Shown here: piece by piece, positions 17,039-45,661 of the stretch
Position numbering within the stretch: the stretch's first letter is position 1
How the letters are laid out: each line of letters starts with the position of its first letter
Origin: Selenomonadaceae bacterium
Lineage (GTDB): Bacteria; Bacillota; Negativicutes; Selenomonadales; Selenomonadaceae
Direction of reading: 5' to 3'
NCBI GenBank assembly: GCA_017549815.1
Contig: JAFYNH010000032.1
Coordinates: 1-64,000, forward strand
DNA length: 64,000 nucleotides
Made by a program: the position numbers and the translations under genes
Notes under the pieces: model-generated
The model's database searches: none
What the model was told of the DNA's origin: nothing
The model's input: the letters and a program-made list of their open reading frames with translations, nothing else

Positions 17039-17076
17039 TGATAAAAATTTTTCCTTAAAAAGGAGGGAGCAGTAAC

Positions 17077-21660: not shown

Positions 21661-21663
21661 AAT

Positions 21664-21698
21664 AAAAGCTCTCAATATTTTTTGGGAGCTTTTTATTT
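21664..21698 (+). terminator. Terminator of the second RTX gene
   Basis: AAAGCTC pairs with GGAGCTTTT across an AT-rich loop and runs into T-rich DNA. Confidence 0.75.
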
Positions 21699-21726
21699 TT
21701 TTATAATCAATTTCTTATAAATCCTA

Positions 21727-21755
21727 TTGCATTTACTAAAAAACTTTTGTAAAAT
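21727..21755 (+). promoter_or_regulatory. Promoter of the third RTX gene
   Basis: TTGCAT (21727-21732), 17-bp spacer, TAAAAT (21750-21755). A TATAAT at 21781 lies too close to the start to serve as -10. Confidence 0.5.
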
Positions 21756-21806
21756 AATGCTGTCATCAAGTGAAATTTTCTATAATTTTTTAAGGAGACG
21801 ATGAAA

Positions 21807-24800: not shown

Positions 24801-26483
24801 CTTATCGAAGATTCCTATGATTACAGTTTCACGGACTCTGATGCTTCGGTTAAAAATATCACCGTAGTTTTTGAAGAAGATTACAGTAGCAATGGCTATT
24901 TGGCTTACACTGGTTGGCCTAAGTATATAAACGGAATTTACACGCGAGTTTTGGGAATAAACAAAGCTTACTATAAAAACTTCGAGAGTACGGATGTCAA
25001 TGGCGAAAGTCCTAATGGACAAGGTTATCTTGACAGAACAGTTGCTCATGAATTGACGCACGCAATAATGATGTCGAAAGTCAGTAGTTTCAGCGACTTG
25101 CCGCAATTTATTACGGAAGGTACGGCGGAATTGGTGCATGGTATCGACGACTTTAGAGGCAACGTTATTTCTTCATTGGCGGGCAGTTCTTCTCTGTTAG
25201 AAAGTTCTTTGAGCTTAATTCCGGGCACAGGTGGAAGATATGAATACGCGAGCGGCTACATGTTCCTGCGCTATCTGGCAAAACAAGGTTCGGAACATTA
25301 TGGCAATTCGGGTAGCGCGGGTAATTTATCAATAATTAACGACGCAATGAATTCTGACTCCTTTACCGTGAAAGGCTCAACCTTAACGGTCGGAAAAGAT
25401 TTTTATAACGACGTGATTGATCTTACGTCCTATGCTTCAATCAAAAGTGTTGACGCGACAAATTTGGCAAAGGGCGTAATGATTGTCGGTAATAAAAAAT
25501 CGAATTCAATCGTAGCTGGCTCTGGCAACGATACTATAAGCGGCAACAACGGCAATGATACTCTGCGCGGTGGCGACGGCGATGAAATTATTTTCGGCAA
25601 CGCTGGTAATGATTTTCTCAAAGGTGAAACGGGTAATGATACGCTCTACGGTGGCGACGGCAATGATACTTTGACGGGAGGCGACGGCGCGGATATTTTC
25701 GTTCACACCGCAGATAACGATTGCATTACCGATTACAAAGCGGGCGTGGATAAGATTAAATTCGTTAAAGAAAATGCTTCCGTGACTTCCTCTTCCGTCA
25801 GCGGCGATAATGTCATTTTGACAATAAGCGGTACGGATTTAATCACCATCAAAGGCGTCAAGAATCAAGAAATCACGTTCATAAATTATAACGGTAAAGA
25901 GACGACGTCAGTTTATGGCGGCGGCTCGACAACCTCGACGCTTTTAACCGTCACCAACTCAACTAAATCACCCGTAACGGTCGGCTCCGCAATTAGAACG
26001 ATTGATGCTTCGATGCGCACGAAGGCTGTCCAGATTACGGGCAACAGTCTTGCCAATACGATTGAGGGCGGCTCTGGTAAGGATTTGCTTTACGGCGGCA
26101 AAGGTGATGATTCAATCGTCGGCAACGCGGGAGCCGATAAACTCTACGGACAAGCGGGCGATGACATTCTGCGCGGCGGAAAGGGTAATGATTCGCTCTG
26201 GGGCGGAACGGGCAATGATACTCTTTACGGTGATGACGGCGCGGATAAATTTATCTATGCCAAAGGCGACGGCAACGATGTCATTTATAATTTTGCTAAC
26301 GACGACATGTTGAAAATCACTGGCACTTTCTTCACGTCTTACAGCAAGTCCAAGAAAGAAATTTATTTCAAGGTCGGCTCGACTTCAAATGCCATTACGC
26401 TAAGAGATTTTGGCTCGACTTCAACGTTTAATATTAACGGTACAAAATATAAACTCGGAGGTTCAAAGCTCATTAAGAAATAA
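21807..26483 (+). CDS. Giant RTX protein with a HExxH metallopeptidase domain (paralogue)
   Basis: 1558 aa from ATG 21807, nine bases after AAGGAG; the in-frame ATG at 21801 is three bases from that site and less likely. N-terminus MNRLVFDLQRFAVYG matches its neighbour. Residues ~15-830 are RTX-like repeats including a ~180-residue internal duplication. The peptidase-like domain has HELTH at 1081-1085 and Glu1108 in EGTAELVHG. Further nonapeptides and the shared C-terminal cassette complete it. It parallels the protein at 17077-21639 over its whole length, so the pair arose by duplication. Secreted protease role inferred. Confidence 0.85.
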   Translation: MNRLVFDLQRFAVYGSYGNDTLNVNGSNSYVYGYSGNDYIYNNKYSYVKIDAGTGNDSIINNGYNKYVTIDGAEGNDNISTGTVDYMSVNGGMGNDSINIYSAWYSTVNAGMGNDTVIVPYRAWQDSINGDFGNDEISLGSGTGDGYNGKNTIVGGYGNDTIWANPTATVGNFYQFTAGDGYDWIYNWNYLDTISLGGYYSSNYYTRSTVGSSVIISLISGGAMTLNGASGKTINIANGIQTVIGGKYISNSNSNSLLSGTSYNDTIINNGYNKNVTIDGAEGNDNISTGTVDYMSVDGGMGNDSINIHSAWYSTINAGMGDDTVVVPYRAWQDSINGGFGDDKISLGSGTGDGYNGKNTIIGGYGNDTIWANPTATVGNFYQFTAGDGYDWIYNWNYLDTISLGGDTYTRSTVGSSVIISLVSGGAMTLNGASGKTINITNGIQSVTTGGTWLKNSDLNSLVSGTSFADTIYNEAGGSTLRGDNGNDSIYSSTLYTVKSSYGYVTIDGGNGNDSIYSFDPYVSINGGEGADKISVYSSANYKGITINGGAGNDTIYGNSLNGGVLYQYNNGDGNDLIYGFTANDTLSISGSSYTTSTSGNDVLVKIGSSSTITLDSAKGKSINIYPKDSPTLGKNFYNTTSNTSITGTSYADTIKNNLAGGVTINAGAGNDSIYNYANKVTVNGGNGNDSLTGGYSNSKINGDNDNDLINLTGSYWWNTIDGGAGNDTIITGGSAHSVNGGAGADKISLSGDKLTVSGGTGNDTIYGSTSASHLYQYKKGDGNDIIYNYGSNDSITISGSTWTSLTSDNNILIKVANSGTITLNGAKGKTLNIYPAKKPDTDPTDPSDVSPQDVIKKFMNCLDKASYSGISALNQAVSVASGGYFTDVYSAIRQMVADCRKTNNATSFLKNYCDIDLSNPKTADTGAITGKEAGGSSVDLTPEKIVPESGYLDTSFKKTSFNTDYGVTFYLSKTSLSDDEFYIWRALKTWWANAAFKLIEDSYDYSFTDSDASVKNITVVFEEDYSSNGYLAYTGWPKYINGIYTRVLGINKAYYKNFESTDVNGESPNGQGYLDRTVAHELTHAIMMSKVSSFSDLPQFITEGTAELVHGIDDFRGNVISSLAGSSSLLESSLSLIPGTGGRYEYASGYMFLRYLAKQGSEHYGNSGSAGNLSIINDAMNSDSFTVKGSTLTVGKDFYNDVIDLTSYASIKSVDATNLAKGVMIVGNKKSNSIVAGSGNDTISGNNGNDTLRGGDGDEIIFGNAGNDFLKGETGNDTLYGGDGNDTLTGGDGADIFVHTADNDCITDYKAGVDKIKFVKENASVTSSSVSGDNVILTISGTDLITIKGVKNQEITFINYNGKETTSVYGGGSTTSTLLTVTNSTKSPVTVGSAIRTIDASMRTKAVQITGNSLANTIEGGSGKDLLYGGKGDDSIVGNAGADKLYGQAGDDILRGGKGNDSLWGGTGNDTLYGDDGADKFIYAKGDGNDVIYNFANDDMLKITGTFFTSYSKSKKEIYFKVGSTSNAITLRDFGSTSTFNINGTKYKLGGSKLIKK
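21976..23137 (+). repeat. ~540-bp internal direct duplication in the third RTX gene
   Basis: Segments 21976-22522 and 22600-23137 match almost base for base with a 624-bp offset over most of their length (both contain GGCGCAGAAGGTAACGATAA). The main difference is a short deletion in the second copy near GGAGGCGATACTTATAC. Confidence 0.85.
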
Positions 26484-27784: not shown

Positions 27785-27865
27785 AAAATCCCTTCTATCC
27801 GTCAATTTTTTGCGCAGTTTAGCAAATCCGCCCTTGCTTGTCAAAATTGAAGTCCAGTCTAAGAA

Positions 27866-29017
27866 TCAACGCGGCATTAAAATTTCCAGCAAGTTCTTTC
27901 CGATAATTTCTGCGTCATCATAGGAATTTTCTTTGCCAAAAGTTATTCGGATTGTTCCGCGAATGTAATCCTTTGGAACGGCTAAAGCTTTAAGGACGTG
28001 AGAAATTTTCACTTGCCGAGAATTGCAAGCCGAGCCGGTCGATACACAAATATTTTTCAAATCAAGGCGGTGTAAGAGAGTTTCGCCGTCGTAATTTTTA
28101 AATGACAAACTCAAATGACCGGGTAAACGAATTTCGCCGCCGTTCAAAATAAAATCAACGTTATTATTTCTCAATCTGTCGAGTAAAATCTTTGCGCAAG
28201 CTGAAATTTTTTCCGAGTTCCTTTCCATATCGCGACAATTTTTTTCGAGTGCAAAAGCCATTGCCGCAATCGCAGGAACATTTTCAGTCCCCGCACGCCG
28301 TGAAAATTCTTGTGTGCCACCGTCAAGATAGGGCAAGAGTTTCAGTCCTTCGCGAATGTAAAGAAATCCGGTACCCTTTGGAGCGTTGAATTTGTGCGCG
28401 GAGGCGGAGAGCATATCCGCTCCCAAAAGTTTTACGTCAACGGGAATATGTCCGACGGCTTGAACCGCGTCAGTATGAAAAATTTTTCCTGCCGTGTGTG
28501 CAATTTCTGCGAGAGATTTAATCGGTTGAATTGTGCCGACTTCGTTATTTGCGAGCATGACGGAAATAATTTTTGTCTGCGGTAAAATTTTTTCGTGCAG
28601 GTCGTCGGGATTGACCGTACCGAACTTATTGACAGGTAATTTCGTCACCGAACAGCCGAGTCGTTCCAATGCCGCGCAGGAATTCAGAATTGCCTTGTGC
28701 TCAACGGCTGAAGTGATTATGTTCGGACGTTCGTTCAAATTTGCAAGTACAGAAGATTTTATCGCCCAGTTGTCACTTTCCGTGCCACCCGACGTAAAAA
28801 AAATTTCCTGCGGCTCGGCGTTAATGCAGGCGGCAATTTTTTCACGCGATTCTTTCAGAATTTTTTTTAACGGACGCGAGAGCTTGTAAGCCGATGAAGG
28901 ATTTGCAAAAAAATTTTTCTGCAAGTCAATCATCAATTCCAAAGCGTCCTCATCAAGTTTAGTCGTCGCCGAGTTATCGGCATAAATAATTTCACTCGAA
29001 GAGCTTGCAACCGTCAT
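27866..29017 (-). CDS. Cysteine desulfurase (NifS/IscS family)
   Basis: 383 aa from ATG 29017, behind TTGAGG. PLP enzyme that removes sulfur from cysteine and passes it as persulfide. Lys209 in SASAHKFNAPKG binds PLP; Cys331 in VSTGSACNS is the persulfide-bearing residue; TSGGTESDN and HTDAVQAVG are conserved. The gene overlaps the end of the upstream 68-aa gene and so is translationally coupled to it. It lies downstream of the BREX operon, whose BrxP has a PP-loop/PAPS-reductase fold, so it could supply sulfur to it. General Fe-S or tRNA thiolation is an equally open role. Confidence 0.92.
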   Translation of the reverse strand: MTVASSSSEIIYADNSATTKLDEDALELMIDLQKNFFANPSSAYKLSRPLKKILKESREKIAACINAEPQEIFFTSGGTESDNWAIKSSVLANLNERPNIITSAVEHKAILNSCAALERLGCSVTKLPVNKFGTVNPDDLHEKILPQTKIISVMLANNEVGTIQPIKSLAEIAHTAGKIFHTDAVQAVGHIPVDVKLLGADMLSASAHKFNAPKGTGFLYIREGLKLLPYLDGGTQEFSRRAGTENVPAIAAMAFALEKNCRDMERNSEKISACAKILLDRLRNNNVDFILNGGEIRLPGHLSLSFKNYDGETLLHRLDLKNICVSTGSACNSRQVKISHVLKALAVPKDYIRGTIRITFGKENSYDDAEIIGKNLLEILMPR

Positions 29018-29198
29018 TCTTGAAGTCCTCAATCTTATCTAAAATGTCTTGCGGCTCGACTTCCAGAAAATTCGCCAAGCAATTAAGGCAATAAAAATTC
29101 TTGCTTTTCATGCCCAAGAGTTTTTTGTTAATGCCGATTTCATTTTTGCTCAAAGGACGTTTCCCGCAAGCAATGCACTCAAAAAATTTTTTAGCCAA
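28992..29198 (-). CDS. Small Cys-rich (zinc-ribbon-like) protein next to the cysteine desulfurase
   Basis: 68 aa, TTG start directly after the brxL stop (TAGTTG), with GAGGT nine bases upstream. Two Cys pairs (ECIACGKRPL and YCLNCLANFLE) look like a treble-clef or zinc ribbon; the acidic C-terminal helix ends EDFKNDGCKLFE. It overlaps the cysteine desulfurase gene by about 26 bp. Similar small proteins beside nifS-like genes are known to me in Firmicutes, but I cannot name a function. It may be a scaffold or sulfur-acceptor partner; that is speculation. Confidence 0.75.
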   Translation of the reverse strand: MAKKFFECIACGKRPLSKNEIGINKKLLGMKSKNFYCLNCLANFLEVEPQDILDKIEDFKNDGCKLFE

Positions 29199-30638
29199 CT
29201 AAATTACCTCGAACTTCGGAATTTCCTTGCCGGCATACTCAATATCCAGCAAGGCAAGTTGTTTTCTAATCGTCGCCCGCATTTGACAGGCACGCTCAAG
29301 ACAGTAACGACTGAAAAGTTTTTTGTCGACTTCTTCAGCGCGTCTGACATTCGGGAAAAATAATTTCAAATACGCCGTTGCAATTCGTTTAATCGCGGCA
29401 GTATCTCGCGTGTCGGCTTTTTCGGGAACCTTAACCAAGTTGTCAACGATTGCCCGATAACTGACATCTTCGCGCAGTTCATGGAGGATTGAACAAAAAT
29501 ATTCGGAGTTCAAAGCCCAGCCGCAAATTTTCATATCGTCATTCATGCGCGGGATATTCCAGCCCTTAATAAAGCCGTGAAAGCGTTCAATCAGCGCGGA
29601 CTCATGAAAGACTGTCGGCAATTCCTCGAACATATTCGCCGCGCCGTCCATATCCATTGCAGATTTTGAAATGTTGCCGCTGAGAATAACTCCCGCGTCG
29701 GCGTTGTTTGAGTGGTTGCCGACCGTGTAAACTCCATTCTCCAAAAAACCTTTCAACGCGGCGCGCATTTCGTCTGTATCCTTAAAAGAAATCGTCTGCA
29801 CTTCGTCGAGTGTCACAAAATCGTTGTAAGCAACAAGCCCCTCTTGACGTTTCTGCATATCGTAAAACATTTTGGCGCGACTCATGATTCCGCCGCTCGA
29901 CAGCCAACCGAAACGACTGATTCGCCCGAAAACGTAAGATTTGCCCGTTCCCTTAGGCGCAAGCTCAATAAAATTCAATCGCTTTTCAACGAAAGGCAAG
30001 AGCCGTGTGAGCATTGTCAATTTTTCTTCTTCGCGCTCGTAGCCTGCTGCATTGTAGTCAATCGCGCCTAAAAGAATTTGCAACCACTCATCGAACGAAA
30101 AATTTTTCCTTGCGTCCTTGTAAAAATCCAAGTTGATTTTGTACGGACAAAAATTTTTGAACTTTAATAAACGAATTTTGCCGGGCACTTTAGGACGCGA
30201 ATCATAATCGGGCGGTCGGTAGCCGAGCTGAATCATTCCCCAAACTTCGCGCCCGCCGACGAGTTCATCTTTGTAAAGGTACCAAACATTTTCGTCAATC
30301 ATCGTTTCCTTAGCCGTGAGTCCGAAATCCGGCAGAGAAAATGACGCCGTGCCGTTCGCTACGTCAATTTCAATGGAAACCTTCGCCAGCAGTTTGACAT
30401 GTTCGTTATCCATGACAATACGGCTTTTAATCGCTTTCCAATCGTCCTTTTTGGGAATAAATTTCTTTACGAAATCCGTCAGTTCATCTGCGTCAAATTT
30501 TCCGTCCGCATCTTCAAAGCGTCGCAAAAGCCAATCGCGCATAAACGACGGCAGACTCAACGCAGAAAAAAAATTGCTGTTCTTCAAATCTTTATAAACG
30601 ACCATGTCGGAGAAAATTTTTTTTAATCTGTTTTCCAT
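29199..30638 (-). CDS. brxL: BREX protein BrxL (AAA+ ATPase, short form)
   Basis: 479 aa from ATG 30638, behind TTGGAG. BrxL is a DNA-binding AAA+ ring ATPase of BREX phage defence. Conserved N-terminal features (IFSDMVVYKD, LPSFMRDWLL), Walker A APKGTGKS (227-234) and Walker B FVTLDEV (274-280) are clear, as is the SGNIS and ERFHGFIKGW sensor region. It stops about 200 residues short of the ~680-aa type I BREX proteins, so the C-terminal Lon-protease-like domain is absent. It is the last BREX gene of the operon, 12 bp after the pglZ stop. Confidence 0.9.
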   Translation of the reverse strand: MENRLKKIFSDMVVYKDLKNSNFFSALSLPSFMRDWLLRRFEDADGKFDADELTDFVKKFIPKKDDWKAIKSRIVMDNEHVKLLAKVSIEIDVANGTASFSLPDFGLTAKETMIDENVWYLYKDELVGGREVWGMIQLGYRPPDYDSRPKVPGKIRLLKFKNFCPYKINLDFYKDARKNFSFDEWLQILLGAIDYNAAGYEREEEKLTMLTRLLPFVEKRLNFIELAPKGTGKSYVFGRISRFGWLSSGGIMSRAKMFYDMQKRQEGLVAYNDFVTLDEVQTISFKDTDEMRAALKGFLENGVYTVGNHSNNADAGVILSGNISKSAMDMDGAANMFEELPTVFHESALIERFHGFIKGWNIPRMNDDMKICGWALNSEYFCSILHELREDVSYRAIVDNLVKVPEKADTRDTAAIKRIATAYLKLFFPNVRRAEEVDKKLFSRYCLERACQMRATIRKQLALLDIEYAGKEIPKFEVI

Positions 30639-30650
30639 TGCTCGCTCCAA

Positions 30651-32543
30651 TCAATCCAAAAGAAAATCGAAAGCGTCATCTGTTTTTTGCAACGCAGGAA
30701 TTTTAACCTCATTGTTCGCCGTCTGCAAAGAAAATTCAATAATGGGCACCAAAATTTCTTCAAGTGTCGCGCCGCCGTGAACTTCGACTGAGGATAATCG
30801 CCCGCCCGCAAATCTGTCGTAATTCGCCAAAACCCAAAAGCCGTTTTCTTCAATCGCGCAATCCGGTTTTTCATCGAATTCATTTATCGGACAACAACGC
30901 CCCGAATGTTCGCCGACGGATTTCAGCTTGAATTTATTTTCGTGCCCGTACATAACGGCGAGGCGGCTTGCTCCATGATCCGAAGTCAAAATAATTTTTT
31001 CGACGCGGTGATTTGCCAAAGTCTTTTTTATTTCGTCAAGCACGTCATTAATTATCCTAAGTTCGTCGTCAATATAAATCGGCGCAGAACATTTGCCGTT
31101 CGCGTCAAATTTCTCCGTTGAATGTTTTAAATCGTCCAACTGCTGATTCTTATCAAATTTATCGCCCGACCAATCATCGTAGAAATTTTTGTTTTGAAAA
31201 GTCAGCGTCGGTAAATCTGCGCGGGCAATCTGAATCTGCGCGGAAAGTCCTAGTTGCGTTGCCTTTGTCTTTATGTAGCCCAAAAACTCAACGCCGAGCG
31301 CGTCTAACCAATAAAGCTTTGCATTTTTATCTGCGTTGTCCAAGATTTTTTGCCGCGTCTCAAATTTGTTGTACGGTCTGCCGAGTGCGATTTCATGAAC
31401 ATGCTTTTTAAAATTTTCGTCGTCGACGTTGCAGAGTTTAATCTTTTTGTAACGCCGAAAATAAATCGTAATCTCCTCGTCCCCGAAGTCGTAATCCGTC
31501 AAGTAATCATTCATAGCCGAATAATTCTTCTTGAAAACGGACGGGATTGCATTTCTGCCCTGTATAAACTCAATCATTGCGCGACGCTCCTCGCCCGTGT
31601 TATCCGTCAAATATTTTACGGCGTCGGGGAAATTTTTCAGTCGCTCAAGATATTCGTCAAGATATTGCGTCGAAATATTTTTGACTGCGGCTTTTCGCAA
31701 CGAATAAAATTCCTCAAAAATTTTTTCGTCTTCAATGTCGAGCAGAGCAAAAAATAAATTCTTACGATACTCTTCATAAGTCGCCGAATGTTCAAAAGCA
31801 TATTTCAAATACGGATTGAAAATTTTATTCTTAAAGCCCGCCGCAAAACTGCGCCAATGTTCGGGCGGATACCCTTCACAATTATTATCAAAAAAATATT
31901 CCCGCCATTGTTCCTCGTTTAGCGCGTCAGGCGAAACTTTAAAGTGCGGCTCCTCATTTTTAATCGCGTCGTAAAAAGTATTTATTTCTTTAACATTTCT
32001 GAGCGGCAAATTTGATTGCACAGTCAAATTATTTTTCCCACCCTCCGCAAGTTTGAGAAGCTCGGAAAAATTTTTGGCGTCCGTCGAAACATTAACGTCA
32101 AAACCGTATTTCACGACAGAAAAATTCTCCTTGCCGCCAGCTTTGCAAATATGATTCGTGCGAAATTTAAAATCTTCGTCGGCGAGACGCTCAAGCAAAT
32201 TCGTAATGCCTCGACAGACGAAGATAATTTTCCGATTAAAATTTTCGTCCTGCAGTCTTCGCAAAATATTTTCTTGCCCCGTAAAGTAAATGTATTCGCC
32301 CAAGCCGAAACACAGTACATTGTTTCCAAATGTTTTCAATTTCTCAACGAGCCTGTCGGTATCTGGAAGAAAATCGCCCGCACAAAAATCCGAGACGTAA
32401 ATTTTCTCGAAGTCGCCGAAAATTCTTTTTAGTTCCGCGCAGATTTTCACGTCGTCCGAAATAACAAAATACGGGCGCATAGTGTCCCGTTTCAAGTAGA
32501 TGCGAATTCTTTTTACGACCTCTTCAACGTTCAAAATCTCCAA
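30651..32543 (-). CDS. pglZ: BREX protein PglZ (alkaline-phosphatase-like)
   Basis: 630 aa. Core BREX component. The C-terminal half has the PglZ-type phosphatase-fold signatures YWLDALGVEFLGYI, ILTSDHGASRLAV and SSVEVHGGATLEEILVPI, where Asp and His residues would bind metal. The N-terminal third is a divergent domain with GLGEYIYFTGQEN. TTG start one base after the brxC stop, with AGGGAG upstream, so translation is probably coupled to brxC. It is shorter than many type I PglZ proteins (~830-900 aa) and consistent with type 4. Confidence 0.9.
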   Translation of the reverse strand: MEILNVEEVVKRIRIYLKRDTMRPYFVISDDVKICAELKRIFGDFEKIYVSDFCAGDFLPDTDRLVEKLKTFGNNVLCFGLGEYIYFTGQENILRRLQDENFNRKIIFVCRGITNLLERLADEDFKFRTNHICKAGGKENFSVVKYGFDVNVSTDAKNFSELLKLAEGGKNNLTVQSNLPLRNVKEINTFYDAIKNEEPHFKVSPDALNEEQWREYFFDNNCEGYPPEHWRSFAAGFKNKIFNPYLKYAFEHSATYEEYRKNLFFALLDIEDEKIFEEFYSLRKAAVKNISTQYLDEYLERLKNFPDAVKYLTDNTGEERRAMIEFIQGRNAIPSVFKKNYSAMNDYLTDYDFGDEEITIYFRRYKKIKLCNVDDENFKKHVHEIALGRPYNKFETRQKILDNADKNAKLYWLDALGVEFLGYIKTKATQLGLSAQIQIARADLPTLTFQNKNFYDDWSGDKFDKNQQLDDLKHSTEKFDANGKCSAPIYIDDELRIINDVLDEIKKTLANHRVEKIILTSDHGASRLAVMYGHENKFKLKSVGEHSGRCCPINEFDEKPDCAIEENGFWVLANYDRFAGGRLSSVEVHGGATLEEILVPIIEFSLQTANNEVKIPALQKTDDAFDFLLD

Positions 32544-32544
32544 T

Positions 32545-35500
32545 TTAAGACTCCCTTAAAAGTTTCAAACCGACTTCATAATTTTTATCAACCAATTCAA
32601 TCAGAAGTTTTTTCGCGTCGCCGTCCGACATTTGCATAACCCGCGCCGTCACTTTGTCATAAGCCCCGCCGCTGTAATATTTATTTTTCGCAAACTCCTT
32701 TACAATCTCATTAATACGAACGTTGGAATACCATTGATAAGCGTCGCCCTTAAATTTTGATTCCAATTCGTTGCGGACTTCGTCGTTGTCGTCCAATATG
32801 CTACGTTGTTCGCCGATAATTTCTCTGCGGAAAGCCTCTTCAATCTTCCGCTTATCCTTCAACGCGGCGAAATACGACGGACGTTTTTCAAGATAATCAA
32901 TCGCGAGCCGTACATCTTTTTCGTCGGGCTGATTCGCCATGACGGTACTAAAAACTTTTCGGGCGTTATCCTGTTCCGACTGCGGCACCATTGCCAAAAT
33001 CGGCGTGCGATGAATTTTCGACCATTCACGCGGCGAATTATTTCCAGCAATATTTTTCCACAAAGTCAAAAGTTCATTCTTCAGCTGTTTGCCCTTTATT
33101 TTCTTTGCATAATCATCAACATTTTTATGATAGCGTCCCTGTGAATCAGTGAACGAAGTATTTGGCAGATAGCTATGGAGTTCTTTAATCTCTTCGTCGT
33201 TCAAGTCGTTTAGCTGATAAGAATATTTGTCGCGCAAAATTTTCAGTGGCTCATTCATTGCGTCGCGAATAATCTCTGCGTTATCTATAAGTTGGCATAA
33301 AAAAAATTCCCTTTTGCTTTGAGAAATTTCATTGCGCTGAAACATTTCCTTTAAGACCGCGAAGAAATCTTTCAGCGTGGGATAATAATCTGTGATTACG
33401 TCGGCAGGGATTTTCAGATTGAATCGGCAATAATCCGCCCAACTTTTCACGCAGGCACTTAGCGATTTTCCGTTAATGCCAAAGTTACGGCTCTCAACGA
33501 CAATCTTGTAATCGACGACCAATTTTTTTAAATCGTCCGTTGCGGTTTCCTTATCGCGTAACCAAATTCCGTCGCCCGACGTTATTCGCCGTTGACATTC
33601 CGCAACAGGATTTTCTATACCGATTTGTTTAGCCAACTCAAAAATTATCCCGTCCTCAAAATTTTTAACGAAGTCGCTAAAAATTTCGCGTCCTTTTTGA
33701 GCCGTGAAAAAATTTTTTAAGTCATGAAAAGCCGCGGGATTATTCAATAAAAATTGCCCTGCGCGTTCCGCCAATGCCGAGACACTGACGGCTTGTTTGG
33801 AATTGGCTATTTCGGTAAGGAGGTATAAAAAATCTTTGTACTTATCTTCCGCCGCGTCCGCATAGCACCAAAACGGATAACCCAAATTTATCAACTTCAA
33901 GCGGAGTTTCTGCGCACTCTGTTCAACGGATATATCTTCCGTCACGTTGAAAATTTCAGACGCAAATAACATGAACTGCCGCTGATTCTGCGACATTATC
34001 TCAAGATATTTCGAGTGATAATTTTTGACGGGATTAAATACTTGCTTGATACTTTCGCCGATATATTCCGCTAACTTCTGAACGTTCATTGCGCCGCCCA
34101 AATTTCCGTCGATACCCGCGCTGAATCGGTAAGGGTCGCCAGCGTATTCCTTCAATAAAAAGCCAGTCAAGAAAGCATAAATATTCAGCGGCATAAATCC
34201 GCGCTTAATCAAGTAATCAATAATATCGTCAAAGGAAATGTGCGTATTTTTTTCAAGCTCACGTTTAATCAATGCGTCGACTTCGATTTTCAAGCGCGAA
34301 ATACTCAAGTCGGGATAAACTTCCCAATACTTTCCTGACATTTGCCACGCGTCGCCCAAAACAATTTTAATCGAGTTCATCTTGAGCATAGAATATTCTT
34401 CCTGCTTTATTCCTGCCTCAGAAAGTTTTTTCAAAGGGGAGGTTTGAAAAAGTGTGTCGGTGATATTGGCGTCATCAAAAGAATACGGATAAATTTGCCG
34501 CACATTATCTTTAAGCTTATCTTTAACTTGGTCGGCACTCTGGCAGGAAATGCCCTTGCGTTCGTCATTATAATTTTTAGTCGCGGGATAATAAACAAAG
34601 GAGCCGTTCGCGAAAGAATTATGCCATTCCTTCAAGCAATCGGCGGCATTATCTTTCATTTTGTCGGCAAGCCCGTTATCTTTGCCGCGCCAATACTTTT
34701 CGTTCGCGGAATTCTCAACCCAGCGCGTGAAAACTTCGCGATTTATCAAATTCGACGAGGCGTCAATAAAAACCAATTTATGATAGCGTTCATTGTCAAT
34801 CGCGTCGCCGATAAGATTATAAATTTTATTTTGTTCGTCTTCGTTGCGGGCAAAGCAGACAACCGCCTTGATGTGATAATCTTCCTTTTCATTCGTGATT
34901 TTCTTAATTGTCGAAGTTAAATTGTCCGCCGCGACAGAATACAAAATGTAACGGAATTTTTGCGCCGCCGACAGATTTATCGTTTCAATAAGCTTGGCGG
35001 TGGGGATAAGAAGGTCGGCAGTCCTTACGGTTTCGGTGATAGATTTTTTCAGACGTTCAATCTCCGCGAAGTCGCCGTTTAAAGCCATTGCCGCAAAAGT
35101 CGTAACCTTGCCCGGTTTCCTGAACAAAATATCTTTGCGTACTAAATCATTTGCGATAGCTACGGCGCGTCCGTTTTCCATGTCAGCGACGCCAGTAAAT
35201 GCAAGCTCCAAATTTTCTTCCGTCGGTCTGAAAATATCAACTCCGCCGCGTGATTCTTGATCTATGGCTTGGAATAATAAAATTGTCTTCAAAACAATTT
35301 GCTCGTCGAGATTTAAAGTATCTTTATTCAGCGCGTAAGAATCGAGAATTGCGCGAATCGACGGCTTTAAATTCATGCGTCCGACGTTTCCGCCGTGTTC
35401 GTCTGTGCCGCTCTCGTAAAAAAAGTTCCACAGATAATCTATCGTCAAAAGGTCGCCGTCTTCGGGAGCTTTCGTCGCGATAAATTCTTGGAAGGCTTTG

Positions 35501-36747
35501 ATATTTGGGTCAGTATTCTTTATGAAATTAAAAATACTCCGTTGATTTGAGGCGAAATAAGACGCGAGATTTTTCAAGAGAATTGCGGTCATTGGGTGAA
35601 TCGGCAAAATATCGGTTAGAATTTTTTCGTTGCGAATTTTTGCGAAGTTCATAACGATTTTGCGCGGCTTTTCGGTACGTGTCCTGAGCGCGGAAGAAAT
35701 ACATTCCCATTCATTTTTGGCTACGTCCTTAACTTTCAGCGCGTGCCCGATAAGTTCAAGGGCAATGTTGTCGGGCATAGTGATATTCATATGGGTAAAT
35801 CTATCGCTGACAATGCGAAAAGCTTGTTCGCTTTCTCCGGCGAGGCTGTTTGATTCGTGGGTAGCTATGATAAGGTAAAACGGCGCGATATTCGACAATT
35901 CTGCGAGCCGTTGAAATTCGTCAAGATTATTACGGTTGTTGCCAAAGAACTTGGAAAACTCGTCCCAAAATAAAATTATCGCCTTCAAATCATTTTCCGC
36001 GATAACTTCAGAAATCCACTCGGTTAATTCTTTCATGTTGATATTGAAAGCGAGGATACCTTCCCGCTCGCCGAGTCTTAAAATTTCTTCGACTAGTTGA
36101 GAGACTTCCGCTTGAGGATTTTTCAGACGCTCGATAATTTCTTCCGCGCTCCTGTTCGCCAAAGACGCGCTCATTCTGTATTCTGATTTTTGAATTTTGG
36201 CGCGGAACATTTCCAGATTTGCTTTGTCCGATTCAAGCCAGTTTGCGATTTTCCCGCGCAGAGTTTTTGCGCCGTCGAATTTGCAACCGTTTTTTCTAAG
36301 GGCACCGCTCAAGCTCTCGAAGACTGCGAAAATCAATTTCTGCGTCGAAGTAATATCGCCCGTTGCATAGCGGACAGCTGTAATGATTTTTCCGTTGCGT
36401 ATTGCTCTAAGACGTTCGCGCAGATCTATTTCGCCGCGCAGGTTGTCATACTCATCAAAATAGGCGTCGAATTCATTTTCGGGGCACGACAAAAGATTTT
36501 GCATCATCCAAAGAATCCGCGATTTGCCCGTCCCGTAAGAACCTTCAAGCCAAAGACTTTTTTTATCCGAACGTGACAATGCCCGCTCTGTCAACTTCAA
36601 CAACGCTACAATATCTTTATGCGGGAAGGTGTGTTGCCATTTATTTTTCGGGTCTTTAATGGAGCTTTCGTTGATTTCGGGATAATAGCCCTCGTCTATT
36701 ACGAAATACTCAAAATATTTATTTGGTTCGTATGCCAACGCCGTCAC
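32545..36747 (-). CDS. brxC: BREX protein BrxC/PglY (large P-loop ATPase)
   Basis: 1400 aa, typical of the family. N-terminal FVIDEGYYPEINES then Walker A GSYGTGKS (69-76) and a Walker B-like IILFWDEFSKFF. BrxC is an essential ATPase of the BREX complex. The frame opens at GTG 36747 (GTG ACG GCG TTG). The eleven bases just upstream and overlapping the start belong to the inverted end of an inserted element, and no Shine-Dalgarno sequence precedes the GTG now; a good one (AAGGGGGTGAAG) lies beyond the insert at 37065-37054. The protein appears complete, but expression may be altered. Confidence 0.92.
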   Translation of the reverse strand: MTALAYEPNKYFEYFVIDEGYYPEINESSIKDPKNKWQHTFPHKDIVALLKLTERALSRSDKKSLWLEGSYGTGKSRILWMMQNLLSCPENEFDAYFDEYDNLRGEIDLRERLRAIRNGKIITAVRYATGDITSTQKLIFAVFESLSGALRKNGCKFDGAKTLRGKIANWLESDKANLEMFRAKIQKSEYRMSASLANRSAEEIIERLKNPQAEVSQLVEEILRLGEREGILAFNINMKELTEWISEVIAENDLKAIILFWDEFSKFFGNNRNNLDEFQRLAELSNIAPFYLIIATHESNSLAGESEQAFRIVSDRFTHMNITMPDNIALELIGHALKVKDVAKNEWECISSALRTRTEKPRKIVMNFAKIRNEKILTDILPIHPMTAILLKNLASYFASNQRSIFNFIKNTDPNIKAFQEFIATKAPEDGDLLTIDYLWNFFYESGTDEHGGNVGRMNLKPSIRAILDSYALNKDTLNLDEQIVLKTILLFQAIDQESRGGVDIFRPTEENLELAFTGVADMENGRAVAIANDLVRKDILFRKPGKVTTFAAMALNGDFAEIERLKKSITETVRTADLLIPTAKLIETINLSAAQKFRYILYSVAADNLTSTIKKITNEKEDYHIKAVVCFARNEDEQNKIYNLIGDAIDNERYHKLVFIDASSNLINREVFTRWVENSANEKYWRGKDNGLADKMKDNAADCLKEWHNSFANGSFVYYPATKNYNDERKGISCQSADQVKDKLKDNVRQIYPYSFDDANITDTLFQTSPLKKLSEAGIKQEEYSMLKMNSIKIVLGDAWQMSGKYWEVYPDLSISRLKIEVDALIKRELEKNTHISFDDIIDYLIKRGFMPLNIYAFLTGFLLKEYAGDPYRFSAGIDGNLGGAMNVQKLAEYIGESIKQVFNPVKNYHSKYLEIMSQNQRQFMLFASEIFNVTEDISVEQSAQKLRLKLINLGYPFWCYADAAEDKYKDFLYLLTEIANSKQAVSVSALAERAGQFLLNNPAAFHDLKNFFTAQKGREIFSDFVKNFEDGIIFELAKQIGIENPVAECQRRITSGDGIWLRDKETATDDLKKLVVDYKIVVESRNFGINGKSLSACVKSWADYCRFNLKIPADVITDYYPTLKDFFAVLKEMFQRNEISQSKREFFLCQLIDNAEIIRDAMNEPLKILRDKYSYQLNDLNDEEIKELHSYLPNTSFTDSQGRYHKNVDDYAKKIKGKQLKNELLTLWKNIAGNNSPREWSKIHRTPILAMVPQSEQDNARKVFSTVMANQPDEKDVRLAIDYLEKRPSYFAALKDKRKIEEAFRREIIGEQRSILDDNDEVRNELESKFKGDAYQWYSNVRINEIVKEFAKNKYYSGGAYDKVTARVMQMSDGDAKKLLIELVDKNYEVGLKLLRES

Positions 36748-37053
36748 CGTTACTGAGAACTTATAAAAAGTTATAAACTCTTATGTCCCATTCCTGCTTC
36801 AACGCGTCCGCTTTTGCCGTAGCTACTTACGTTTGGTATGACGCTCCACAGGCTTAAATTCCCCGCTAACGTACGGGTACATATACAGGTTTCCGTGAAA
36901 GTGGAACTTCCTGCATTAGTCTTTACTGCGCTCGGAGTTTTACGGTGACAACGTTCACGAGTCACCAACCGCCTAACCCAACTTTTCAAAGAACTGTCGG
37001 GATTATAACGCAAATAAATTCGTTAGGCAACATAAAAATTTTTCAGTAACGGT
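36746..37053. mobile_element. ~308-bp inserted element with inverted ends between brxP and brxC
   Basis: ACCGTTACTGA (36746-36756) and its perfect complement TCAGTAACGGT (37043-37053) bound the segment; the match extends to 15 of 17 bp. Inside is an 80-codon open frame (37013-36771, minus) that has no domain I recognise; its EAGMGHKSL end is reminiscent of the tails of IS200/IS605 tnpB genes, so this could be a transposon remnant or MITE. It lies exactly between the original brxC ribosome site and its start codon. A 2-bp CG target duplication is possible but not certain. Confidence 0.7.
37002..37030 (-). promoter_or_regulatory. Outward promoter carried by the insert, facing brxC
   Basis: On the minus strand TTGCCT (37030-37025) and a perfect TATAAT (37007-37002) are 17 bp apart and point into brxC-pglZ-brxL. 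Seen in sequence; activity is inferred. Confidence 0.6.
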
Positions 37054-37065
37054 CTTCACCCCCTT
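37054..37065 (-). promoter_or_regulatory. Displaced ribosome binding site of brxC
   Basis: AAGGGGGTGAAG abuts the right end of the insert. If the insert is removed, it would lie about 8-9 bases ahead of the brxC GTG, ideal spacing. Confidence 0.65.
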
Positions 37066-37123
37066 ATAATTTTGATAAACTTTTGAGACTTGTTATAAGT
37101 TATCTTTATCTGTTAGAAGCCTC

Positions 37124-39409
37124 TTAACGGTTAAACAAATTCAAAACGTCCTGCGAAGTTTTTTCCGCGATAAGCGAAATTTTTTCAAGGTCGTGCGTAA
37201 AAGTTGCGTTGAGGAATTCGGGATAATTTGCTGACAAGCCGTTAAGGAATTGTTGCATACCCTCGCGGTCGATACCGAAAATTTTTGACGGACTCACGCC
37301 CGCAGAATCCGAATCGCTCATCAAGCGCGTTAAATTTAATTGATACCAGCCGTCAGTAGCCTCCGCGAATTTGTACAGCGAATAAAGAATAACTCGCCCG
37401 TCTTCAACCTTTGCATTTGTGCGTTTCAAGGTTGCAAGGTTGCGCCCGTCGCTCGTCGTCGTTCCGAAGTTTAATTCAGTACCAAGCGGCGTCTCGCATA
37501 ATCGCTTGAAGGCTTTGACTATCGACTTTGAATCTTTAACGGAAACTTCAATTGCTTGTAATTTTTCTTCGACAACAGCGCGGTCTTTTCCTTCATTGAT
37601 AGGCAAATTTTCTACATACCAGCGAATTTGCGGATTGTTATAAACGAGATTGACGAGAATCAAGCCCCATGCTGTCGCCGTGTTCCAACCGATTTTCTTA
37701 ACAAGTTCGGTAAATTCCGTTGACATTTTATCTTTCCTGTCGACAAGTTCAGCATCAAAAAGAAACCTTTTGAATTGTACATTTTGCATTGAGCCAAGAG
37801 TATTTTTTTTCAAAAATGAATTGGGATTGGCAAAAAAATCTTTAAGCCACTCAGTTTTTGGCGCGTGGTCTGAAAATGTGTTTAATTTCTTATCGTTCAA
37901 CTTACCGCCTCCTCCTATAGATAATTTTGTAGAATTAAAAAGCAGACAACCCGAATCAATATCATGACATTGCAGGCAGTGGACGCATTTTTTCTTGTCA
38001 ATGTGCAAGCCGTCATTAAAAGAAATTGCTCCATGACTGCAATTTGATTCGCAAACTCCGCAACCGATACACGTCGCCGCCTTATGAAAAACGGATTTAA
38101 AATTTTTCAGCTCCGTTGTTCCGCAGTAATCGGCTTTAACTTTTGCAGTGACGATTTTATTTTCAGAATCGGTTTGAATTTCATAACGAAAAGTAGGTTC
38201 GCCGATAGTCTTAATCCACTCTTGCCAATCGGTTTTGGGATTAGTAACGGTGATATAAAAATAATCGTCCTTAACTTCCTCGCTGTAATTCGTCAGAGGA
38301 CTTTTTAAGTCTCTACCGTTTTTCCGATTAACCCAGCCGCCGTTCGATATATATGAATCAATATCTTCATCCGTGACATTTTCGGCTATGTAACCAATAA
38401 ATTTCTTTAATTCGTTCGGATAAGCGTTATTACGAAAAAAAACTGCTCTGCCGCTACTCATTGGGCAAAGCAAACAACCTGCGCGGGAATTGCCCTTTTT
38501 GTAGCAGTCGTTAATCGGTAAGCCATGCATAAAGATATACAGCCAGACTTCCGCCGAGCCCCATTCCAGAATTGAGTTATGGGAATATTGTCCGCGTTGT
38601 TTCTGCCCTACATTTTCAATATCGTATTCCGAACGCTTGAAACTTTCTTGAGCGCGAACACCGATAAAGTCCGCTCCGACAAAATCGGGTTTACCAAGAA
38701 TTTCGCGAATCTTCAAAGTTTGCGGCGCGGCTTTATGAACACTGCAACACCAACGCAAAACGCTTGAAGGAGCACCGAAAAGTTTCCAACTCTCTTCGGG
38801 CAAAAACTTCGACGCGGCGCGATAAAAGCCGATACCTTCTGCGGCGCATTGTTTTTCAACCACATCAACGATTTTATATGTATCTGGGAATTCCATATGC
38901 GTATCGCCGAAGACAACGATAAAAGACGACTTGGGCAAGGCGTGCTTAACCAAATCCAGCAAGACGACAGAATCTTTGCCGCCGCTGAACGCTACATGAA
39001 AACAATCCAGTCGCTTTTGATGACTTTTCCAATAACGATAAATGCGCTTGATAGTCTCCTGCCGCAGATTTTCCATTAGCTCGAAATTTTTTTCGGACAT
39101 TTTCTTTAAGTCGACGGGCAGAAGCGTTTCACCTTGCGGCAAGCCGTCTTCCTCAACAAATTCAAGTTGCGGCTTTTCATAAAGAGAGCCGCCTTTGACG
39201 ACGGCAATTTTTTTCCCGTGATAAAAATAATTTCCAGCCTCTGCCCAAAGGTAGGGAACAGCATTTTGATTTTCGTAATGCCAGCGGCTGTTGAAGCCCA
39301 AAATATTCATTTCTTCGGCGTAAATCGGACGCGGCTCCTTAGACATTAGAGCCTCTGTATCCGTTAATAAAATTCCGCCGGTTTCTTCATCGAATTCATA
39401 TTTATACAT
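37124..39409 (-). CDS. brxP: BrxP: PAPS-reductase-like, ferredoxin and DUF4007 fusion (BREX type 4)
   Basis: 761 aa. PP-loop SGGKDS at 142-147. CC at 221-222 and CxxC at 312-315 give the CC-X~90-CxxC [4Fe-4S] pattern of APS reductase and DndC. A two-cluster ferredoxin insert follows (C447, C450, C453, C457; C475, C478, C481, C488), then a DUF4007 C-terminal domain (~510-740; TFSDHAPKTEW, AWGLILVNLVYNNPQIRWYV). A PAPS-reductase gene marks BREX type 4. By analogy with DndC it may activate or transfer sulfur to DNA or another target; the reaction is unproven. It lies 17 bp after the 462-aa gene. Confidence 0.9.
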   Translation of the reverse strand: MYKYEFDEETGGILLTDTEALMSKEPRPIYAEEMNILGFNSRWHYENQNAVPYLWAEAGNYFYHGKKIAVVKGGSLYEKPQLEFVEEDGLPQGETLLPVDLKKMSEKNFELMENLRQETIKRIYRYWKSHQKRLDCFHVAFSGGKDSVVLLDLVKHALPKSSFIVVFGDTHMEFPDTYKIVDVVEKQCAAEGIGFYRAASKFLPEESWKLFGAPSSVLRWCCSVHKAAPQTLKIREILGKPDFVGADFIGVRAQESFKRSEYDIENVGQKQRGQYSHNSILEWGSAEVWLYIFMHGLPINDCYKKGNSRAGCLLCPMSSGRAVFFRNNAYPNELKKFIGYIAENVTDEDIDSYISNGGWVNRKNGRDLKSPLTNYSEEVKDDYFYITVTNPKTDWQEWIKTIGEPTFRYEIQTDSENKIVTAKVKADYCGTTELKNFKSVFHKAATCIGCGVCESNCSHGAISFNDGLHIDKKKCVHCLQCHDIDSGCLLFNSTKLSIGGGGKLNDKKLNTFSDHAPKTEWLKDFFANPNSFLKKNTLGSMQNVQFKRFLFDAELVDRKDKMSTEFTELVKKIGWNTATAWGLILVNLVYNNPQIRWYVENLPINEGKDRAVVEEKLQAIEVSVKDSKSIVKAFKRLCETPLGTELNFGTTTSDGRNLATLKRTNAKVEDGRVILYSLYKFAEATDGWYQLNLTRLMSDSDSAGVSPSKIFGIDREGMQQFLNGLSANYPEFLNATFTHDLEKISLIAEKTSQDVLNLFNR

Positions 39410-39426
39410 AACGGCGGCTTAATTCT

Positions 39427-40815
39427 TCACTTGTTCAAAATTTCCTGCGCATGTGAAATAATTCTCACCGTTGTTTTTTCAAGACGTTTTGCTCTGAATC
39501 CTTGATTGATTAAAAAACTTTCGACGGCAGATTTTTCAAGCGGAATTTTTTCTTGAAGGACTGCCCGCGCTTGAACGTCAAGATAATCTTCAAACTTCAT
39601 CGACTTGGGATAAATCGCGCCGATATTTGCGTTGTTGGCGGCTGAAGTGTCGAATGAATATTTTTGGCTGAACCTCCTCAAGAAACTTTCAAGCAAGAAC
39701 AAATTCCACGAATAGCCCGCGACAGGCGGAAAACCCGTAAAACTTGTGACGCCGCGCAGAGGAATAATTTTCCCTTGCACAAATGACGTTAAAGCCTCGT
39801 CGACTCCTGCAACGTCAAAGCTTATCAGCGAATCTTCGACGAACAAATCTTTCTCAACGCGAATCATCATTTCATGTGCCACCGACAATGAAACGGTTGC
39901 ATATTTTTTTGAAAATCCTAAGCTTTCAGCAAAGGCAAAAAGTTTTTCAACGGACAATTCCTTATACTCCGAAATAAATTCTCGTAGGCTTTGCGTCGAA
40001 TCGGAAGTATTTCTTTTGGCTACGTCACCTTTCCTGAAAAGTTTCATACCGCGTTTGGTAAATTCAGCAGAGAAAAATTTTTCATAGATAACGTTGCGCA
40101 AATCTTTTTCGGCGATTTCGGGGTTGAGATCAAAGTTTGAAGACAAGTCATAATCCTCAGCAGTGGCGTAGCCGTTTGATTCAATTTGTAGAGTTATTTG
40201 TCGCTTAACTGATTGAATTTCTTCCGCATCGAATTGGACTTTGGAAACGGGAATATATTTGCCTGTATTTGTCCGCAGAAATTTTTCTATGTCTGAGAGC
40301 ACCGCCAAAATTTTTTCCGACGGCACGTAAGGCAATTTTTCTTGTAAATCTTCGAGCGATAAAGATTTTCCCGCCGCCATAAAAATTCCCGAAACTTCAT
40401 AGTCAAGGCGAATTCCTCTGTTAGTCGAGCAAAACTCGGCAAAGCAAAAATAAGTATTCGTCACACGCAAAATTTTTCTTAAAATTTCGGGCGAAAAAAT
40501 ATGCAACGGCGTAAAAAAGTCCGAATACTTTTTGTAAACGGCGGAATAGTAAACGATTGAATTTATCCTTAAAATGTCGTCGAAAAGGCTTTTAATCTCC
40601 GCCTCGTCGTTTTCAGAAATAAAATAATATCGCCCGCCGTCTTCAATTCCGTTTGAGTAAATAACATTTGAAATAAATTCTCGCGAAATATTTTCATTGC
40701 CATAACTTGCCGAGTAAATTCGCAAAACTTTACTCACGTCAATGAAGTCGTCGCGTATCCCGTTAATAAAATTGTTCCTTATGATTTCGATAATTTTTTT
40801 TACAACATATTGCAT
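39427..40815 (-). CDS. Unknown protein, first gene of the BREX type 4 operon
   Basis: 462 aa; ATG behind AAGGGGGATAG. Not recognised. It is mostly alpha-helical with short segments that look like repeated winged-helix units (SREFISNVIYSNGIEDGGRY, SLEDLQEKLPYVPSEKILA, SLREFISEYKELSVEKLFAF); there are no membrane segments and no obvious catalytic motif. Position and tight spacing (17 bp) to brxP suggest it belongs to the defence system, as a regulator, DNA-binding adaptor or modification partner. It follows the pckA terminator by ~20 bp with no clear promoter. Confidence 0.75.
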   Translation of the reverse strand: MQYVVKKIIEIIRNNFINGIRDDFIDVSKVLRIYSASYGNENISREFISNVIYSNGIEDGGRYYFISENDEAEIKSLFDDILRINSIVYYSAVYKKYSDFFTPLHIFSPEILRKILRVTNTYFCFAEFCSTNRGIRLDYEVSGIFMAAGKSLSLEDLQEKLPYVPSEKILAVLSDIEKFLRTNTGKYIPVSKVQFDAEEIQSVKRQITLQIESNGYATAEDYDLSSNFDLNPEIAEKDLRNVIYEKFFSAEFTKRGMKLFRKGDVAKRNTSDSTQSLREFISEYKELSVEKLFAFAESLGFSKKYATVSLSVAHEMMIRVEKDLFVEDSLISFDVAGVDEALTSFVQGKIIPLRGVTSFTGFPPVAGYSWNLFLLESFLRRFSQKYSFDTSAANNANIGAIYPKSMKFEDYLDVQARAVLQEKIPLEKSAVESFLINQGFRAKRLEKTTVRIISHAQEILNK

Positions 40816-40835
40816 TGTCTATCCCCCTTAAAGCG

Positions 40836-40875
40836 AAGAAAATAACCCCGCCCTCCGCAGAGAACAGGGTTATTC
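40836..40875 (-). terminator. pckA terminator, just ahead of the BREX operon
   Basis: AATAACCC pairs with GGGTTATT (minus-strand order), with GC-rich loop and TTTTC after. The BREX lead gene starts ~20 bp beyond, so leakage could drive it. Confidence 0.65.
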
Positions 40876-40896
40876 TTTGTTCAATGTGTTAAAAAA

Positions 40897-42768: not shown

Positions 42769-44139
42769 ATGGAAAACAAAAAACAAGGTTCAATGGCGGG
42801 CTTTTTAGTTCCGTCAATCATCGGAATAATTTTGTTCATGATACCCGTACAATATGACGGGAGTTGGACAATCGTCGTTAAAATCGTCGCGGATATGATA
42901 AGCAACGCGATTGGCGATTATCTGCCCGCTTTATGCGTGTGTATAGTGACTTTATCGGCGATTCTCGGCGTCATTTTCTTGGGCAAGCCGAATTTCATCG
43001 CCACTTATCCGATTGTCGCCAATACTTTTTCGACGACGGCGATTTGGGTTGTAATCAGAATCTGTGGCGCGATTTTTATCTGGCTGACTTATCTGGGCGT
43101 CGGCGCGGAAGACGAAGACAGCGTAATAGGCTTGATAACGAGCGGCGATAACGGCGGCTTCGTGCTTCATGATTTACTTACTGTCCTTGTGGTAATTTTT
43201 CTTTTGGCGGGCTTGCTGTTGCCATTGCTGTTGGATTTCGGACTGCTTGAATTTATCGGCGCAATGCTTACAAAAATTATGCGTCCGCTATTCACAATAC
43301 CGGGTCGCGCCGCCGTCGACTGTATAACGTCATGGATTGGCGACGGTACATTGGGCGTCATGCTCACCGCGAATCAGTATGAAGGCGGCTATTATTCAAA
43401 GCGCGAGGCGGCTATTATCTCGACGACTTTCTCCGCAGTCTCGATAACATTTTCAATCGTGGTGCTCGCGCAGGTTGATTTAATGGAATATTTCGGGCTG
43501 TACTATCTTTTAATCTGCGCGATTGGTATTGTCTGCGCGTTAATCCTTCCGAGAATCCCGCCGCTTAGCTTAAAAAAGGACGAATATTTAGTTCCCGGTA
43601 AGGCAATGGGTGAATCGCTCCCCGAAGGTTACACGACTTCATTTCAATATGGAATTGCTTTGGCAAGAGAGCGCGTCGGCGAACATCGCGGCTTTGAACA
43701 ATTTATGGAAGGCGCGTTTAAAAATGCGGCGGGTATGTGGTTCGGAGTTTTGCCGGTCGTCATGTGCATAGGAACTTTGGCATTGGTCTTGGCGAATCAC
43801 ACAACAATTTTTGACACGCTGGGCTTGCCGTTTCTGCCGCTTTTGCAACTTTTAGACGTGCCGCAAGCTACGGAAGTATCAAAGACAATGATAGTTGGCT
43901 TTACGGACATGTTTACGCCGTCAGTACTCGCGGCGGGCACGATAACAAGCCCTATGGCAAAATTTATCGTCGCGGTTATCTCAGTCACGCAGTTAATTTA
44001 TCTGTCGGAAGTCGGCGGCTTGATTCTCGGCTCAAAAATCCCCGTCAATCTCCCCGAACTTTTTATCCTCTTCCTTGAGCGGACAATTATCAGCTTATTA
44101 ATCGCGGCTCCCGTCTCTCACATGTTCTTTACAACTTGA
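42769..44139 (+). CDS. YjiH family membrane protein (nucleoside-recognition domain)
   Basis: 456 aa, about 10-11 membrane segments (FLVPSIIGIILFMIPV, AICLIYYL-type runs). The central region FTIPGRAAVDCITSWIGDG and the late FTDMFTPSVLAAG segment are those of the YjiH/nucleoside-recognition (GATE) family. Transport substrate is not known. ATG follows AAAGGGGG. It has its own promoter and terminator and stands alone. Confidence 0.85.
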   Translation: MENKKQGSMAGFLVPSIIGIILFMIPVQYDGSWTIVVKIVADMISNAIGDYLPALCVCIVTLSAILGVIFLGKPNFIATYPIVANTFSTTAIWVVIRICGAIFIWLTYLGVGAEDEDSVIGLITSGDNGGFVLHDLLTVLVVIFLLAGLLLPLLLDFGLLEFIGAMLTKIMRPLFTIPGRAAVDCITSWIGDGTLGVMLTANQYEGGYYSKREAAIISTTFSAVSITFSIVVLAQVDLMEYFGLYYLLICAIGIVCALILPRIPPLSLKKDEYLVPGKAMGESLPEGYTTSFQYGIALARERVGEHRGFEQFMEGAFKNAAGMWFGVLPVVMCIGTLALVLANHTTIFDTLGLPFLPLLQLLDVPQATEVSKTMIVGFTDMFTPSVLAAGTITSPMAKFIVAVISVTQLIYLSEVGGLILGSKIPVNLPELFILFLERTIISLLIAAPVSHMFFTT

Positions 44140-44153
44140 AAACTTTTAGGAAT

Positions 44154-44192
44154 AAAAAAAACCCGTCGGCTAATCGGCGGGTAATTTTTTTA
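44154..44192. terminator. Bidirectional terminator between the YjiH and TPR genes
   Basis: ACCCGTCGGC pairs with GTCGGCGGGT-type sequence around CTAAT, with A-run left and T-run right. Confidence 0.85.
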
Positions 44193-44235
44193 AATTAAAA
44201 AGATTATTTCCTTCTACAATTATCCATTTGTGATT

Positions 44236-45075: not shown

Positions 45076-45097
45076 GATTACAACCTCCGTAATTTTA

Positions 45098-45643: not shown

Positions 45644-45661
45644 AGTAATCACCTGCTAAGA

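Follow-up and report, generated by a model that had tools for sequence, protein, structure and literature searches.

A type-4 BREX island of a rumen Selenomonadaceae bacterium, its unnamed and fast-evolving first gene, and relatives that lack the sulfur genes

We describe, from a rumen bacterium, a complete genomic island with a presumed role in phage defence; the system type is already known, and the locus is a near-textbook BREX system of type 4. We consider it likely that the island was acquired horizontally, is essentially complete, marks DNA with sulfur and employs the product of its first gene, here called X, as a recognition or sensing subunit. What appears to be new is the unnamed, conserved X, together with maintained derivatives of the system from which the sulfur genes are missing; the type-4 mark itself is known from the literature. 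The window, that is, the whole 64-kb stretch of DNA that was analysed, lies on contig C22 of a draft genome 2.77 Mb in size, the closest named relatives of which are rumen Selenomonadaceae, including Quinella. L-numbers below denote individual loci and G-numbers denote genomes.

Seven minus-strand genes, running from position 40815 down to 27866 in the order X, brxP, brxC, pglZ, brxL, zinc finger and desulfurase, make up the island (Table 1). Its limits are drawn by natural empty sites: in five relatives (L147, L150, L151, L154 and L173) pckA directly adjoins larC and the BREX genes are absent, and the match of the window to these sites stops where the pckA terminator ends, at about 40839, and restarts at about 27796, just before larC. 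These breaks in similarity delimit the inserted segment, with X as its first gene and the desulfurase as its last, and it is because of the empty sites that X, the zinc finger and the desulfurase can be counted as parts of the inserted unit. A hairpin similar to the pckA terminator is also present in the empty sites, and no tRNA was found in the 64-kb window or at the island ends. Among 189 genomes of the family, those that encode a full or near-full BrxP include many from the same genus and others from several further genera. Outside the island, the window also holds three consecutive plus-strand genes (14492-26483; 812, 1520 and 1560 aa) that encode calcium-binding repeats of the RTX type, in the first case together with a CAP domain, and its G+C content falls locally to 35% at 44001-46000, over TPR-repeat and unnamed genes.

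Table 1. Position of the island, its genes and associated elements in the window.
Feature	Coordinates	Strand	Remarks
Inserted island	27797..40838	-	about 13,042 bp; flanked by the pckA terminator and by larC
Terminator-like pckA hairpin	40839..40876	-	left insertion border; stem of 17 pairs followed by a T tail
X, 462 aa, first gene, unnamed family	39427..40815	-	predicted winged-helix array
brxP, 761 aa	37124..39409	-	PADLOC BrxP 1.4e-236, residues 1-759
IS200/IS605-type element, internally deleted, 376 bp	36748..37123	-	brxP-brxC junction
brxC, 1400 aa, AAA+ ATPase	32545..36747	-	PADLOC BrxC 1.1e-241, full length
pglZ, type-4 form, 630 aa	30651..32543	-	NF033445 BREX_PglZ_4 3.1e-103, 346.7 bits, cut-off 140
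brxL, short form, 483 aa	29199..30650	-	TIGR02688 5.6e-125, 417.5 bits, cut-off 329.3
Zinc-finger gene, 68 aa, CxxC...CxxC	28992..29198	-	starts directly after the brxL stop, overlaps the desulfurase start
Cysteine desulfurase, DndA/SspA-like, about 383 aa from ATG, last island gene	27866..29017	-	PADLOC DndA 9e-124, SspA 1.8e-122

An earlier note on this DNA had recognized brxP, brxC, pglZ and brxL by their motifs, and their place, order and strand are borne out by strong PADLOC and NCBIfam matches. Every motif that it quoted is there (SGGKDS with CC/CxxC, GSYGTGKS, SDHGASRLAV and APKGTGKS), and the profile search that it proposed returned matches for BrxC, PglZ, BrxL and the PAPS reductase, with no Pfam match reported for DUF4007. 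BrxP is full-length, with SGGKDS, CCSVHK and CLLCP intact, and combines a PAPS-reductase/PP-loop sulfurtransferase domain (PF01507), a 4Fe-4S region (Fer4) and a putatively SspB/DUF4007-like C-terminal part; the latter matches PDLC02511, and a free-standing homologue of it in L055 matches SspB weakly (E 4e-4). The Walker A motif of BrxC and the SDHG motif of PglZ are likewise intact, and comparison of start sites with relatives suggests that the original brxC start may be a TTG 9 nt further in. BrxL aligns to PDB 8emc over residues 8-457 of 679 and is missing the C-terminal Lon part of this solved 679-aa protein. As the note had also stated, the window holds no PglX: none was seen among the scanned window proteins, and the PglX model NF033452 gave nothing above its cut-off in the draft genome (500 bits; best 30.7) and nothing on the contig of the window. 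Of 14 control genomes, one gave a score above the cut-off of this model. The search of the whole draft genome rules out a linked PglX methylase of the kind that serves methylation in BREX types 1 and 3. The note's assignment to type 4, in which a PAPS reductase replaces the methylase, is upheld by the BrxP match, the BREX_PglZ_4 score above its cut-off and the absence of PglX.

Other statements of the note need revision. It regarded the type-4 mark as not settled, which is out of date, as the literature treats type 4 as a DNA phosphorothioation system: PMC12839542 (Rakesh & Krishnan 2026) describes it as phosphorothioation-based, PMC11931770 counts brxPCZL as one of three known families for phosphorothioate synthesis, and both are our sources for the report of DNA phosphorothioation by BREX type 4 in Yuan et al. 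(Nat Commun 2026;17:1717). The description of a compact four-gene locus was wrong, since the unit comprises seven genes, two of which are tied to sulfur supply and one of which is unnamed; the interval given for it, 29199-40815, does contain the four core genes, but takes in X without mention and misses the zinc finger and the desulfurase. The parts of the island are consistent with phosphorothioation, namely the PP-loop motif SGGKDS, the conserved cysteines and the 4Fe-4S region of BrxP and the linked desulfurase, and the host DNA is very probably marked with sulfur, as phosphorothioates, instead of being methylated. According to PMC12839542, a zinc finger and a cysteine desulfurase occur near type-4 loci, with the desulfurase in 56% and the PAPS reductase in 89% of type-4 taxa. 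We found homologues of the zinc finger in more than 25 other loci, mostly immediately behind brxL, and desulfurases at least 53% identical to that of the island in 26 of 66 genomes of the genus; nearly all of the 26 also possess type-4 BREX genes, in many cases on one contig with the desulfurase; a paralogue at 43-46% identity is a separate gene. Because the enzyme reaches only 286.5 bits against the curated DndA model TIGR03235 (cut-off 480) and also misses the NifS cut-off of NCBIfam, we call it DndA/SspA-like, though its best PADLOC name is DndA.

The first gene of the island represents a family that had no match in Pfam, PADLOC or NCBIfam and is not among the type-4 components described in the available part of PMC12839542. 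In 14 of 16 loci found by the BrxP search and possessing enough upstream sequence, brxP is immediately preceded by a member of the X family on the same strand and within about 75 bp; one of the 14 is shortened to 268 aa (L041) and one belongs to a Synergistaceae genome (27% identity). Of the other two loci, L038 has X at the far side of its cassette and on the opposite strand, and L042 (genome G107) has it on another contig, beside brxL. A distant second type-4 lineage of the genus, with BrxP about 34-36% identical, also carries an X-family member upstream of brxP. Where complete enough, these proteins are 343-1148 aa long and match a broadened X profile at 1e-43 to 1e-65, L088 being the only second-lineage member that the profile contained; more distant X proteins in L084-L086 match at 1e-13 to 1e-17. 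In a sample of the phylum X was present in seven of 14 loci, including L132 by a weak match and L125 with an intervening gene. X is thus a frequent, non-universal part of type 4, and its absence from about half of the phylum loci and from an archaeal plasmid suggests that it is dispensable for some type-4 systems. That plasmid (L122; pNP174 of Methanosphaera, a rumen archaeon; 174 kb) has no X upstream of its BrxP and carries the type-4 BREX genes followed by a DUF262 gene; a search of plasmids for X gave no match. The family is also not confined to BREX, as proteins of 682 aa occur outside it among metabolic or envelope genes (L067:12932-14980 and L068:2637-4685). Two family members, one of 1320 aa at L062:3733-7695 and one of 824 aa at L066:7881-10355, bear a DUF4357 domain at the C-terminus.

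Within the island, X is the fastest-evolving protein, with a mean identity of 57% versus 69.5% for PglZ, 75.4% for BrxP, 75.5% for BrxC, 76% for the desulfurase and 90% for BrxL. In AlphaFold2 models, X consists of small units that resemble winged helices and follow one another in a row (whole protein: pLDDT 80.7, pTM 0.49; residues 268-462: pLDDT 92.5, pTM 0.88). For residues 135-191 the best match to a winged helix has a Z of 8.3 over 56 residues, the C-terminal part gave no Z above 6.9, and a fold search with the whole protein returned nothing significant (best E 5e-3, then 1.6e-2), for which reason the winged-helix nature is supported for parts of X only. Kinship with UFL1, SelB, RPC5 or the AbiEi antitoxin was considered and rejected, as these matches look like a shared winged-helix arrangement, and a search of the PDB with the X profile gave nothing beyond engrailed-homeodomain designs, none of them better than E 0.03. 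X proteins of lineage B carry helix domains of the RNA_pol_A_CTD and Sigma70_r4 types, and two of them weakly match positions 783-970 of the PglW profile (E 0.002 and 0.007), a region that, according to PMC12839542, consists of an alpha-CTD-like domain and, after it, three winged helices.

The association of X with one half of the system is seen in five loci that keep X, BrxC and PglZ (L051, L052, L055, L056 and L059). Even at E 0.01 they gave no match for BrxL, the desulfurase, the zinc finger or the PAPS-reductase domain, the sole exception being a spurious zinc-finger alignment of 34 residues in L059. Of BrxP, L055 and L056 retain the C-terminal part alone. These modules form two groups, with BrxC about 65-79% versus 41-42% identical to that of the window, and PglZ keeps its SDHG motif in them. 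In the four modules tested, one pair per group (L052/L056 and L055/L059), the absence of internal stops and a dN/dS of 0.11-0.24 indicate that they are maintained by purifying selection; brxC of the L051 module is broken. A BrxP locus is present elsewhere in three of the module genomes (G063, G074 and G111) and none was seen in G105 and G109, both of which are incomplete. No methylase that might serve as a replacement modification enzyme was found among the scanned proteins near three of the modules, whose neighbors are metabolic, transport, kinase-TPR and sensor genes. Because X, brxC and pglZ are kept together where the sulfur genes are gone, we assign X to the BrxC-PglZ half of the system. 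It is conceivable, and we offer it as a tentative proposal only, that X represents an unnamed, fast-evolving BREX type-4 family with tandem winged helices and a variable alpha-CTD- or sigma-like N-terminus and, at the same time, that X-BrxC-PglZ, seen in at least two lineages of the genus, constitutes a BREX-derived defence free of sulfur genes and brxL that needs no mark of its own or borrows that of another locus. Given the 89% figure for the PAPS reductase in PMC12839542, some of these loci may already be within its counts. A large protein with protein-kinase, NB-ARC-like and TPR regions, together with a partner of 501-555 aa, repeatedly adjoins BREX loci or the modules (L052:6879-10487, L056:3953-7591 and L038:2907-6599), and PADLOC reports PD-T4-6-like kinase domains in L052 and L056.

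We propose the following course of action for the island. The cysteine desulfurase, with the zinc-finger protein, would supply sulfur. BrxP, using the PP-loop/4Fe-4S part together with the putatively DNA-binding, SspB/DUF4007-like tail, would introduce phosphorothioates at particular sites of the host DNA with the assistance of the BrxC ATPase. A complex of BrxC and PglZ would recognize unmarked phage DNA, whereupon PglZ might block or nick it and BrxL would act on DNA; nuclease activity of PglZ and DNA binding by BrxC are described in the literature on type-1 BREX. As judged from sequence and predicted structure, X is most likely a subunit of the BrxC-PglZ half, in which its tandem winged helices would serve recognition of DNA or sensing of phage.

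Several other explanations of the island and of X deserve consideration. That the zinc finger and the desulfurase are housekeeping neighbors that belong with larC, not with BREX, is very improbable: NifS-like enzymes do serve many pathways, the desulfurase does not reach the curated thresholds of the NCBIfam models for DndA and NifS, and some type-4 loci are without one, but among 30 larC loci of the genus a desulfurase adjoins larC only in that of the window, and in relatives with other flanks the pair still follows brxL. The empty sites, which have no desulfurase, rule it out as a gene of the larC region. The integrity of this particular copy raises a separate concern, as the brxP-brxC junction holds a mobile-element remnant, because of which the copy is not the cleanest model of the system. 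The gap was considered as a hidden gene and this was rejected, since its 80-aa ORF has no family match and the gap represents a repeated IS200/IS605-type end; the right end of about 135 bp has several further copies in the genome, 86-94% identical, and in L072 and L074 such ends lie directly behind full-length ORFs of 389-390 aa with a TnpB-like C-terminus. In relatives the junction is short, with a GGAG-like stretch just upstream of the brxC start, and here the element separates this stretch from the start codon, so that translation or expression of brxC may be reduced. Silencing by the insertion, with brxC translation or transcription blocked and the locus a decaying relic, is nevertheless quite improbable, in view of the reading frames, all seven of which are open, and an in-frame GTG at the element border; the element also contains a promoter-like TTGCCT-17-TATAAT, such matches being no commoner than in shuffled sequence. 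We infer that the present copy is active.

The remaining alternatives concern the role of X. It seems unlikely that X is merely a transcriptional regulator of the operon, an idea suggested by its position as first gene, its winged-helix units, the sigma-like and alpha-CTD-like helices added in lineage B and the lack of another obvious regulator in the island except the zinc finger. With 374-1320 aa, X proteins exceed the usual size of a repressor, the gene stays beside BrxC-PglZ where the remaining genes are absent and lies at the opposite end of the cassette on the other strand in L038, and the order of alpha-CTD-like and winged-helix parts resembles a portion of PglW, a BREX defence protein according to PMC12839542. 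We likewise hold it unlikely that X, instead of sensing phage DNA, determines jointly with the BrxP tail which sites are phosphorothioated. Such a role would accord with the winged-helix units and with the fast evolution of X and of BrxP residues 301-420 and 481-660, yet X persists in modules without sulfur chemistry, in which there is hence nothing to target for marking. A recognition or sensing subunit of the BrxC-PglZ half is the reading of X that we prefer. Self/non-self discrimination in type 4 rests on the sulfur mark, and X, being conserved, fast-evolving, DNA-binding-like and retained with the BrxC-PglZ core where the sulfur genes are missing, is a concrete candidate for the reader of its absence. 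The sulfur-free modules may allow the restriction half to be studied apart from the marking half, and the natural empty sites define a clean seven-gene unit for cloning.

In comparison with known systems, the island agrees with BREX type 4 (brxPCZL) in its four core genes in canonical order, in a BrxP with a fused, putatively SspB/DUF4007-like part and in the zinc finger and cysteine desulfurase that PMC12839542 reports near type-4 loci; it differs in the X gene upstream of brxP, which the available part of that source does not describe, in a short PglZ (630 aa versus 741-749 for the models) and in the IS remnant between brxP and brxC. With SspABCD it shares an SspA-like desulfurase and the correspondence of BrxC to SspC, of BrxP to SspD and of the BrxP tail to SspB, whereas it possesses PglZ and BrxL and no restriction gene of the SspE or SspFGH type was seen in the island. 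The X proteins of lineage B recall PglW of type-2 BREX in that they possess helix-turn-helix and alpha-CTD-like domains, and two of these proteins weakly match the profile of that PglW region, but no nuclease or kinase domain was found in X and the likeness is weak, and was not seen for the X of the window. Finally, X is akin to BrxA of type-1 BREX in being a multi-HTH, DNA-binding-like protein of a BREX operon, though the reported type-4 counterpart of BrxA is DUF4007, the putative equivalent of which is here fused to BrxP, and X comes in addition to it.
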